In this document: in pieces, positions 2,084-4,478 of the stretch | How positions within the stretch are numbered: position 1 is the first letter of the stretch | Layout: each line of letters starts with the position of its first letter | DNA from: Echinicola soli | Lineage (GTDB): Bacteria; Bacteroidota; Bacteroidia; Cytophagales; Cyclobacteriaceae | DNA length: 64,000 bases | Assembly (NCBI RefSeq): GCF_006575665.1 | Contig: NZ_CP041253.1 | Coordinates: 1,059,501-1,123,500, forward strand | Reading direction: 5' to 3' | The notes under the pieces: generated by a model | Databases searched by the model: none | What the model saw: the letters and a program-made list of their open reading frames with translations, nothing else | What the model was told of the DNA's origin: nothing | Position numbers and translations under genes: made by a program

Positions 2084-2924
2084 AAGCTTGGTGACTTCGT
2101 AACTATATTTTTCGCCACTAAGACCCGAAGACACAAAGGGGGTTGGTTGGGATTAGCAGTACACCTAGCCCCTTATTCCCAAAAAAACTTGGTGACTTCG
2201 TGGCTATATTTTTCGCCACTAAGACCCGAAGACACAAAGGGGGTTGGTTGGGATTAGCAGTACACCTAGCCCCTTATTCCCAAAAAAACTTGGTGACTTC
2301 GTGGCTATATTTTTCGCCACTAATACCCGAAGACACAAAGAGGGTTGGTTGGGATTAGCAGTACACCTAGCCCCTTATTCCTAAAAACTTCGTGACTTGG
2401 TGACTTCGTGGCTATATTTTTCGCCACTAAGGCTCGAAGACACAAAGGGGGTTGGTTGGGATTAGCAGTACACCTAGCCCCTTATTCCAAAAAAACTTCG
2501 TGACTTGGTGATTTCGTGGCTTACTTTCTTCCACCACTAAGACCCGAAGACACAAAGGGGGGTGGTTGGGATTAGCAGTACACCTAGCCCCTTATTCCTA
2601 AAAACTTCGTGACTTGGTGACTTCGTGGCTATATTTTTCGCCACTAAGGCTCGAAGACACAAAGAGGGTTGGTTGGGATTAGCAGTACACCTAGCCCCTT
2701 ATTCCAAAAAAACTTCGTGACTTGGTGACTTCGTGGCTTACTTTCTTCCACCACTAAGACCCGAAGACACAAAGGGGGTTGGTTGGGATTAGCAGTACAC
2801 CTAGCCCCTTATTCCAAAAAAACTTCGTGACTTGGTGACTTCGTGGCTATATTTTTCGCCACTAAGACCCGAAGGCACAAAGGGGGTTGGTAGGAATATG
2901 CTGTGCACTTGGTGACTCTTGATA
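2084..2924. repeat. Tandem repeat array 1: seven full ~101-110 bp units plus a decaying eighth
   Basis: Each unit has a head and a tail. The head is an imperfect palindrome: an arm like CTTGGTGACTTCGTGGC, a spacer TATATTTTTC, then GCCACTAAGACCCGAAG followed by ACACAAAG. The tail is GGGGGTTGGTTGGGATTAG, then CAGTACACCTAGCCCCTTATTCC. Full tails start at 2151, 2252, 2353, 2460, 2570, 2677 and 2787, so the spacing is 101, 101, 107, 110, 107 and 110. Length changes come from presence or absence of an extra TTCGTGAC/TTGGTGA step in the head. Two head variants alternate (GACCCGAAG and GGCTCGAAG). The period is not a multiple of three and no conserved coding frame runs through it. The last head (about 2827-2890) loses its normal tail and decays just before the GxxExxY gene. 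Confidence 0.95.
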
Positions 2925-2938
2925 GCAATTCCAATCTC

Positions 2939-3331
2939 TCATGCTCTAAACCTTCTTATCCCATTTTTAATGATAGGAACATTAAAATTTATTAGATATC
3001 CCAAATTAAGTTTTGTTAATTTTAGATGACTTATAATTTGAGCCTCCCAGACTGTATTGACTTCTTCCACTGCTTTGAGTTCTACGATTACTATTTCATT
3101 TACAAGTAAATCCAGCCTTAATCCTTCATCAAACCTAATATTTTCATAATAGATTGGAATACTTACTTGTCTTTTTACATCAAAGCCATCTTTTCGAAGT
3201 TCATGTGCCATACAGGCTTCATATATTTTTTCAAGCAAGCCCGGTCCAAGTTCCGAATGAACTTTAAATGCTGCATTGACGACAGCTCTTCCTATTCTTT
3301 CTTCTTCATCTGTTAATTCTGAATATTTCAT
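2939..3331 (-). CDS. GxxExxY family protein (PD-(D/E)XK_3-like)
   Basis: A 130-residue protein with the motif that names its family, GLLEKIYE (G-x2-E-x2-Y), after the N-terminal helix VVNAAFKVHSELGPG. A predicted PD-(D/E)XK nuclease core follows: the Asp in LRLDLLVN and the Glu-x-Lys of VIVELKAVEE, then LGYLINFN near the C-terminus, the usual family ending. The ATG at 3331 (MKYSELT) is chosen over a TTG two codons upstream. Length is normal (~120-135). The gene sits alone between two tandem repeat arrays, and the same ~105 bp unit resumes ~40 bp upstream of its start. Function of the family is not established; nuclease activity is inferred from fold motifs. Base composition is more AT-rich than the repeats around it. 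Confidence 0.9.
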   Translation of the reverse strand: MKYSELTDEEERIGRAVVNAAFKVHSELGPGLLEKIYEACMAHELRKDGFDVKRQVSIPIYYENIRFDEGLRLDLLVNEIVIVELKAVEEVNTVWEAQIISHLKLTKLNLGYLINFNVPIIKNGIRRFRA

Positions 3332-3372
3332 AATCAATTATACTGAAAATTATTAATAGCAACTATCACAAT

Positions 3373-4478
3373 ATTTGATGACTTCGTAACTTTTGTTTTT
3401 CTGCCACTAATACCCGAAGGCACAAAGGGGGTTGGTTGGGATTAGCAGTACACCTAGCCCCTTATTCCTAAAAACTTCGTGACTTGGTGACTTCGTGGCT
3501 ATATTTTTAGCCACTAAGGCTCGAAGACACAAAGAGGGTTGGTTGGGATTAGCAGTACACCTAGCCCCTTATTCCAAAAAAAACTTCGTGACTTCGTGGC
3601 TATATTTTTCGCCACTAAGACCCGAAGGCACAAAGGGGGTTGGTTGGGATTAGCAGTACACCTAGCCCCTTATTCCTAAAAACTTCGTGACTTGGTGACT
3701 TCGTGGCTATATTTTTCGCCACTAAGACCCGAAGGCACAAAGGGGGTTGGTTGGGATTAGCAGTACACCTAGCCCCTTATTCCCAAAAACTTCGTGACTT
3801 GGTGACTTCGTGGCTATATTTTTCGCCACTAAGGCTCGAAGACACAAAGAGGGTTGGTTGGGATTAGCAGTACACCTAGCCCCTTATTCCAAAAAAACTT
3901 CGTGACTTGGTGACTTCGTGGCTATATTTTTCGCCACTAAGGCTCGAAGACACAAAGAGGGTTGGTTGGGATTAGCAGTACACCTAGCCCCTTATTCCAA
4001 AAAAACTTCGTGACTTGGTGACTTCGTGGCTATATTTTTCGCCACTAAGACCCGAAGACACAAAGGGGGTTGGTTGGGATTAGCAGTACACCTAGCCCCT
4101 TATTCCAAAAAAACTTCGTGACTTGGTGACTTCGTGGCTATATTTTTCGCCACTAAGGCTCGAAGACACAAAGAGGGTTGGTTGGGATTAGCAGTACACC
4201 TAGCCCCTTATTCCTAAAAACTTCGTGACTTGGTGACTTCGTGGCTATATTTTTCGCCACTAAGACCCGAAGGCACAAAGGGGGTTGGTTGGGATTAGCA
4301 GTACACCTAGCCCCTTATTCCCAAAAACTTCGTGACTTGGTGACTTCGTGGCTATATTTTTCGCCACTAAGACCCGAAGACACAAAGGGGGTTGGTTGGG
4401 ATTAGCAGTACACCTAGCCCCTTATTCCTAAAAACTTCGTGACTTCGTGGCTATATTTTTCGCCACTAAGGCTCGAAG
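3373..4478. repeat. Tandem repeat array 2: ten full ~101-108 bp units plus a terminal half unit
   Basis: The same unit and orientation as the array on the other side of the GxxExxY gene. Full tails start at 3440, 3547, 3648, 3755, 3862, 3970, 4078, 4186, 4293 and 4400, giving spacings of 107, 101, 107, 107, 108, 108, 108, 107 and 107. Heads are a mixture of the GACCCGAAG type (often with GAAGGCAC) and the GGCTCGAAG type (with AAAGAGGG). The first copy is degenerate (TAATACCCGAAGG). The array ends with a head but no tail, about 15 bp before the stop codon of the TRIC-type channel gene. Near identity of adjacent copies suggests recent amplification or homogenisation. Confidence 0.95.

Follow-up and report, generated by a model that had tools for sequence, protein, structure and literature searches.

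Insertion sequences (IS) and miniature inverted-repeat transposable elements (MITEs) have inverted ends and occur in gene-bearing and gene-less forms with related interiors. Repetitive extragenic palindromic (REP) sequences, including REPINs, and their REP-associated tyrosine transposases (RAYT, TnpA_REP) (PMC2817692, PMC3116915) are another known arrangement. They are many-copy intergenic palindromes with a single-gene partner that is itself flanked by repeats, and the gene-less copies outnumber the gene. The intervening sequences (IVS) of 16S and 23S rRNA genes are patchily distributed elements of about 0.4–0.5 kb with a small open reading frame (ORF) in an inverted-repeat loop (PMC4990558). 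BrickBuilt, a minisatellite-in-MITE found in Porphyromonas gingivalis, another member of the Bacteroidota, has tandem repeats within an intergenic inverted-repeat element (PMC4596501). Here, we describe an array of short palindromic repeats that surrounds a single GxxExxY gene in Echinicola soli (contig NZ_CP041253.1, positions 1,059,501 to 1,123,500; this 64,000-nucleotide stretch is referred to below as the window, and positions are those of the window unless otherwise indicated). Both probably belong to a single compact DNA element, which exists in a form that carries the gene and in gene-less derivatives that were amplified locally.

Organization of the array in the window

The arrays were located at 2087–4478 in the window by Tandem Repeats Finder. 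When the units were cut at their 10–12 bp linkers, 17 short elements of 89–98 bp and one element of 533 bp were obtained. The features are as follows.

2084..4478, minus strand: whole array, 17 short palindromic elements and one gene-bearing element in uniform orientation
2114..2847, minus strand: seven short gene-less elements of 91–98 bp, with linkers, downstream of the gene
2858..3390, minus strand: gene-bearing element of 533 bp, made up of a decayed 5′ arm, the ORF, a 3′ interior resembling the short elements and a 3′ arm
2858..2882, minus strand: 3′ arm of the gene-bearing element, CTTTGTGCCTTCGGGTCTTAGTGGC
2939..3331, minus strand: GxxExxY gene, 130 aa from the ATG (alternative TTG start at 3337), TIGR04256 and PF13366 (PDDEXK_3)
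3374..3390, minus strand: 5′ arm of the gene-bearing element, decayed, GTTACGAAGTCATCAAA
3403..4451, minus strand: ten short gene-less elements of 89–98 bp, with linkers, upstream of the gene
4041..4138, minus strand: typical short element, GCCACGAAGTCACCAAGTCACGAAG, 48 bp interior, CTTTGTGTCTTCGGGTCTTAGTGGC

Read in the direction of the gene, the 5′ arm of a short unit is GCCACGAAG-T-CACCAAG-T-CACGAAG, followed by an interior of approximately 45–50 bp and a 3′ arm of CTTTGTG-T-CTTCGGG-T-CTTAGTGGC. The 3′ interior of the 533 bp unit (GTGCACAGCATATTCCTACCAACCCC) resembles the interior of the short units (GTGTACTGCTAATCCCAACCAACCCC), indicating that the unit is present here in two adjacent forms, one with and one without the gene. 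The gene-less units thus keep both arms and an interior like the 3′ end of the gene-bearing element, as internal-deletion (MITE-like) derivatives would, and the gene occupies the position of the tail when the unit is read as arm-tail-arm.

A preliminary description of this DNA had counted 17 units in uniform orientation, seven to the left and ten to the right of a single 130-residue gene, and the same units were recovered by cutting at the linkers. The lengths of 101, 107, 108 and 110 bp that it listed were reproduced as unit spacings when the cut was made at the conserved end of the tail, and the imperfect palindromic head and the G-rich/C-rich tail are both present. Two head variants do exist (GGGTCT or GAGCC in one arm, with two linker types), but they alternate irregularly.

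The copies in the window array are 83–100 % identical to the reference unit, while those outside it are 72–94 % identical and often partial, apart from one 25-base piece with 100 % identity. This difference indicates that homogenization is local. The array is flanked by two protein-coding ORFs and so lies outside rRNA; we take these to be an M20-peptidase-like ORF on one side and, on the other, a 203-aa membrane-protein-like ORF. A known RNA family was rejected as the identity of the array, where only two sub-threshold matches to sbrA were found.

Association of GxxExxY genes with tandem words

The sequences flanking GxxExxY genes were compared in several sets of loci. The first set (82 loci) contained both GxxExxY genes of the window genome and 80 loci fetched from 59 relatives, namely the 79 listed highest and L191, which was chosen after motif B (see below) had been seen beside it. 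The 18 remaining weaker or broken loci over the cut-off formed a late set, making 100 loci in total; the inverted-repeat, word-count, arm, tree, mismatch and element-length tests cover the sets assembled earlier. The scan set was the best 80 of 582 loci, all from one peptide pattern, by likeness to the window protein, and therefore leans to AAG words. Its organism names are record titles, mostly of metagenome-assembled genomes (MAGs) in which binning errors are possible. The third set held the 27 top-scoring loci of a 296-genome sample of the phylum. It began as 28 new loci, one of which was dropped for odd length; two further loci of the sample were already in the first set, and the 27 have no gene core in common with the other sets.

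The repeats share tandem 7-mers, and generic words were defined as tandem 7-mers of the type CACnnAK. The variants found, among them CACnAAG, CACnGAG, CACnGAT, CACATAG, CGCnAAG and CATTAAG, are all on this one theme. Of the 100 loci, 49 had generic words no more than 250 bp from the gene (44 of 82 in the first set and 5 of 18 in the late set). Leaving out L191 gave 43/81 for the first set, and leaving out the two E. soli genes as well gave 41/79. Their density across the 100 loci was 328 per 100 kb within 250 bp of the gene and 6.3 per 100 kb at a distance of 4–8.5 kb. In the scan set, words were found within 250 bp in 67 of 80 loci, at 709 per 100 kb against 14.5 at 4–8.5 kb, and all 27 loci of the third set had them within 250 bp. 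The association of the repeat with GxxExxY genes across genomes, which the preliminary description had proposed as a check, is therefore strong and general.

According to the record titles, the scan loci come from Bacteroidota, Planctomycetota, Ignavibacteria/Chlorobi, several proteobacterial classes, Verrucomicrobia-type groups and Acidobacteria, as well as Chloroflexi-type groups, a cyanobacterium, Spirochaetota, WOR-3, Margulisiibacteriota and one Methanosarcinales MAG. The placement of some of these names in a phylum is presumed.

Two more specific motifs were also followed. Motif A, the window's own (CCACNAAGNCACNAAG), was found within 250 bp of the gene in 3 of the 82 loci, including that of the window, and in 16 of the 80 scan loci. 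Motif B (CCACNGATN{1,3}CACNGAT) gave 26 matches at up to 750 bp from the gene, spread over 10 of the 82 loci (22 matches in 9/81 without L191), none at 750–2000 bp and six beyond, and no match within 1 kb of the gene in any of the 80 scan loci. Imperfect inverted repeats with a score of at least 11 were similarly concentrated: the near flanks (95 kb) contained 66 of them, distributed over 38 of 82 loci, and the far flanks (87 kb) contained ten, in nine loci. The commonest 7-mer family reached a count of at least 25 in 18 of 75 near windows but in only 6 of 257 far windows. Exact 10-mer counts near the gene returned mostly A-rich words.

A draft contig stops less than 500 bp from the GxxExxY gene in seven of the 80 fetched loci (L112, L133, L139, L154, L157, L177 and L190), as would be expected if flanking repeats break the assembly.

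Geometry of the boxed gene

In many loci, a single ORF of about 130 codons has inverted arms of tandem words on its two sides, often only tens of bases away. Upstream of the gene the words read CAC..AAG, and downstream they read CTT..GTG. Within 150 bp, this arrangement (CAC upstream, GTG downstream) outnumbered the opposite one by 13 to 3 among the 82 loci of the first set, by 39 to 6 among the 80 scan loci and by 19 to 1 among the 27 loci of the third set.

A motif-free arm test, in which the upstream sequence was compared with the reverse complement of the downstream sequence (score of at least 30), was usable where the flanks were long enough, namely in 78 of 82 and 75 of 80 loci. It was passed by 35/78 loci of the first set and 49/75 scan loci. 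Far controls from the same loci passed in 0/295 and 0/200 cases, and cross-locus pairs in 3/232 and 19/222. In the third set, 16 of 27 loci passed, compared with 5 of 103 cross-locus pairs.

Tandem words were found on both sides of the gene in 55 of 162 loci, and in these the element was 419–663 bp long, with a median of 480 bp. The arms mostly contain three words (range 2–4) spaced 8–11 bp apart, 8 bp being the commonest and wider spacings being uncounted. Terminal inverted repeats, a trait of IS and MITEs, are thus present, and the palindrome often extends outward by a few bases (38 and 41 of the 55 loci at the first two positions).

Specificity of the association

Two other gene families in the same relatives were used as controls. 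Generic words were found within 250 bp of none of 27 genes of the RAYT type (Y1_Tnp, PF01797) and within 1.5 kb of one, three of 30 loci having been omitted for odd lengths; a Y1_Tnp match is present in 47 of the 59 relatives. For four-helix-bundle genes (TIGR02436) the counts were 0/28 within 250 bp and 1/28 within 1.5 kb, with two of 30 loci omitted for the same reason. The four-helix-bundle genes do, however, pass the arm test in 14 of 28 cases, against 2 of 81 cross-locus pairs (the sole control for this comparison). With arms but without the GxxExxY-type words, they seem to be boxed by other words. Such S23-like genes, where they lie outside rRNA, may form a second class of boxed ORFs that parallels the GxxExxY class but uses its own words.

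By eye, the inverted arms of these TIGR02436 genes outside rRNA (L272–L301) are of the GTACnnnGTAC or GTCTAGTGTCT types. The neighbours of the gene are co-directional with it in 24 of 27 of these loci.

The GxxExxY protein

The product of the single gene between the arrays scored far over the cut-offs of two families (139.7 bits against a cut-off of 35 for TIGR04256 and 138.1 bits against 22 for PF13366). These were the only matches of the window ORF to Pfam and NCBIfam at E values up to 0.001, and no known transposase domain was found among them. Residues G29, G31, E34, Y37, D74, E84, K86, Q98 and N115 are invariant in both alignments (12 and 22 sequences). We take D74, E84 and K86 to be the PD-(D/E)XK active-site motif (D ... 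ExK).

The ratio of non-synonymous to synonymous substitution (dN/dS) was computed for close pairs, many of which had saturated dS. It was 0.03–0.12 in the six pairs with dS below 1, and the remaining unsaturated pairs reached values of up to 0.17. Together with the invariant D, E and K residues, these low values imply a working protein.

GxxExxY was found in 39 of the 59 relatives and in 152 of the 296 genomes of the phylum sample. A number of the matches in the relatives are split or contain internal stops, and the gene therefore seems to be often lost. It is nearly absent from phages (one relative in the viral-contig scan, none in 50,697 phage records) and from plasmids (8 of 72,556 records with a match, all called non-mobilizable). 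Phage or plasmid cargo was rejected on this basis.

The repeat elsewhere in Echinicola

The 107 bp unit has 125 matches at 29 sites in the 5.55 Mb E. soli genome when matches within 3 kb are merged. The second of the two GxxExxY genes, at 1,945,221 of the genome (L044, 1945144–1945774), lies between palindromes of the GAT type (CCACGGATTTCACTGAT and ATCCGTGTAATCCGTGG), while those of the window are of the AAG type. When 23 array loci, 15 from the window genome and the rest from G001, G003, G005, G008 and G010, were translated and searched for GxxExxY remnants with the profile, nothing significant was found (best E value 0.26).

Ten of 20 further stretches hold tandem arrays of the kind found in the window, with periods of 110–293 bp. 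Those in the E. soli genome with periods of 207–293 bp (L036–L041 and L043) are composites of the head/tail unit and further sequence, and several of them carry a second palindrome near GTTCCGCAGCACAGCTGTCGGAAC. Stretches fetched for other repeat copies (L047, L051 and L052) contain 20 bp tandem runs of the type CCAAACAGGCTTGTCTGG. An array with a period of about 76 bp in L049 (3846–4727, about 4750345–4751226) consists of about 46 bp of conserved sequence and variable spacers of about 30 bp, a layout resembling that of clustered regularly interspaced short palindromic repeats (CRISPR).

Each of the 11 genomes in the genus set contained the membrane-protein-like neighbour of the window array. 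The start of the peptidase was recognized beside it in five of the other ten and unrecognized in the remaining five. Examined by eye, G004, G006 and G007 have no palindrome of this kind in the gap between the two genes, G003 has one and G005 two, which indicates that growth of the window array was local. At a different site, a GxxExxY gene lies inside arrays of CATTAAG-word units in G008 and G009. G001 has neither array nor gene between the matching flanks there, but 306 bp of other sequence. This G001 site (L313, G001:C17:312350–313250) carries a separate set of inverted word repeats, GGTTAACTGTTGAATTGGTTAACTG ... CAGTTCAACAATTCTACAATTTAAC.

Neither G003 nor G005 has a GxxExxY match. In G005, two arrays with seven and eight exact motif matches (L316, G005:C1:1286000–1292500) flank a 744-aa ORF, which is presumably catalase-peroxidase-like. 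Since repeats are kept in both genomes, the palindromes can persist without the gene. These genomes, and the gene-less sites in E. soli itself, speak against a strict dependence of the repeat on the gene. Arrays of equal size in strains lacking the gene would have told against the proposal in the preliminary description; G005 comes near to this case, although its arrays fall short of 17 units.

Word type and protein phylogeny

Word type was mapped on a tree in which 87 of 162 proteins carried a label; the alignment had few columns and many forks are open. It required 17 changes, compared with a mean of 28.7 when labels were shuffled, and none of 200 shuffles gave a value as low. The GAT label changed three times (9.6 when shuffled, 0/500 as low) and the AAG label 13 times (25.7, 0/500). 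The window protein falls inside a set of 21 AAG rows with a support of 98. A supported branch separates the two E. soli proteins, and with them their two word types, although two GAT rows are on the side of the window protein.

Interpretation and alternative explanations

We consider it probable that, as stated above, the gene and the repeats represent one element. The preliminary description was right in outline on this point, and the relationship is more general than it claimed, but arrays can persist without need of the gene. A number of observations weigh against a single element. Generic words were lacking in 51 of the 100 loci, some of which have other palindromes while in others nothing was detected; among the 18 weaker or broken loci of the late set, only five have the words. 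The arm test was failed by 43 of the 78 usable loci of the first set. A reversed-pattern control was also enriched near the gene, though far less than the words themselves, at 45 against 1.4 per 100 kb in the relatives and 36 near against 4.2 far in the scan set. No target-site duplication was detected, as direct repeats at the ends were no longer than in the cross-locus null (55 loci). In E. soli, 28 of the 29 sites of the window repeat have no GxxExxY gene, and head-motif matches in genomes without the gene number 38 in G005 and 21 in G003. Five of the six protein pairs with dS below 1 are from orthologous sites, and a recent duplication of the gene-bearing form inside a single genome was not observed. 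A profile search of PDB chains with the window protein returned no match at E values up to 1. The GAG label was only weakly clustered on the tree (14 changes against 17.4, 11/500), and physical linkage alone could produce the tracking of word type with protein clade.

An element acting at the RNA level, like an IVS, would be a hairpin-bounded ORF in transcribed regions that is excised by RNase III, the arms acting as an RNA stem. The size and layout match the Coxiella IVS, which is 428–444 nt long and has complementary sequence on both sides of its one ORF (PMC4990558). The ORFs of IVS are of the S23-type four-helix-bundle family, whose members here have arms as described above, although their words differ from those at GxxExxY genes. 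The arms can pair, and the typical short element (4041..4138) folds well on the gene strand (minus strand −33.1 kcal/mol, z −2.8; plus strand −28.9 kcal/mol, z −1.4). Neighbouring genes were co-directional with the GxxExxY gene in 47/75 loci of the first set (control 117/210) and 48/68 scan loci (control 65/128), a mild excess that is weak in the relatives; 7, 12 and 1 loci were omitted from the neighbour-strand counts. A stem maintained as RNA is not evident in the mismatches, as G:U pairs did not exceed A:C pairs between the arms on the gene strand (208 vs 219, p 0.63, 130 loci), nor did they in subsets or at higher thresholds. Moreover, Rfam searches of 20 of the 80 scan loci gave no rRNA match, only one tRNA and one group II intron match in two loci, and an IVS in rRNA was rejected. 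We regard action at the RNA level as unlikely and, given the absence of a G:U excess, prefer an element that acts as DNA.

It is also possible, though quite improbable, that the palindromes belong to a family moved by something else and that the GxxExxY gene, captured in the interior, simply rides along. Arrays without the gene would be expected of such a passenger, and linkage could account for the word types. The same ORF family is, however, found alone between such arms in many loci under record titles spanning different phyla, it appears to encode a working protein, and within 250 bp of RAYT and four-helix-bundle genes these words are absent. A role in the service of the host, the protein being a chromosomal nuclease or regulator, with palindromes kept as sites controlling neighbouring genes or recombination, would fit the purifying selection, the residence at orthologous sites and the near absence from phages and plasmids. 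The patchy presence of the gene (39/59 and 152/296) and its broken copies suggest gain and loss instead, and we find this role very unlikely. Ordinary REP/RAYT repeats (bacterial interspersed mosaic elements, BIME) mistakenly linked to a bystander gene can hardly be the explanation. The palindromes and intergenic tandem clusters do resemble REPs, and Y1_Tnp matches are common in the relatives, but none of the 27 Y1_Tnp loci has the words within 250 bp, compared with 49/100 and 67/80 GxxExxY loci, and a REP/RAYT origin was rejected.

Proposed mechanism and significance

If the gene and repeats are a single DNA element, the GxxExxY protein would work as a DNA endonuclease on the arms of its own element, both in cis and in trans, the arms possibly being extruded as cruciforms when it does so. 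Breaks at the arms would drive copying into new intergenic sites, and recombination between neighbouring units after such breaks could lead to growth and homogenization of the array. Word type and protein would travel together, with each protein clade serving its own repeat family.

More tentatively, GxxExxY proteins may be the movers of an unrecognized class of minimal element, in which one PD-(D/E)XK enzyme recognizes arms of iterated 7-mer words, moves the element without target duplication, and gives rise to gene-less palindromic derivatives that account for much of the intergenic repeat content of the host genomes. Such a class would be bacteria-wide, with one MAG titled as archaeal; we hold this wider proposal to be possible rather than probable.

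The association ties the GxxExxY family to a large group of intergenic palindromes. It also provides a testable context for a nuclease-like family that is present in over half of the phylum-sample genomes and is given no function in the parts of the literature searched. There, GxxExxY appears in passing mentions with no link to repeats, PDDEXK_3 is not named, and PF13366 is named in one paper. No report of the link between gene and repeat was found in the literature searched, many subscription papers and bioRxiv preprints falling outside that search. If the protein does cut its own arms, it would be a very small mobile-element enzyme with word-specific recognition of DNA. The E. soli genome holds two natural specificities, for AAG-type and GAT-type words, so that a direct swap test is possible.

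Comparison with known systems

The array shares with REP/RAYT systems its many-copy intergenic palindromes, a repeat-flanked single-gene partner and an excess of gene-less copies. It differs in that the partner is PD-(D/E)XK-like rather than an HUH Y1 transposase, in having arms of tandem 7-mers close around the ORF, and in that the Y1_Tnp genes tested here lack these words. Like an IVS, it has a small ORF in an inverted-repeat loop of similar length and a patchy distribution, but it was outside rRNA in the 20 loci checked, encodes another protein, has tandem-word arms and no RNA-pairing signature, and is accompanied by gene-less derivatives and tandem arrays. Inverted ends and related interiors in gene-bearing and gene-less forms are held in common with IS and MITEs, from which it is set apart by the lack of a detectable target-site duplication, the lack of a known transposase domain in the window element and arms built from iterated words. 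BrickBuilt resembles it in placing tandem repeats within an intergenic inverted-repeat element, but its tandem unit is 23 bp and its abstract names no partner gene (PMC4596501), while in the element described here the arms are made of 7-mer words and enclose a GxxExxY gene.

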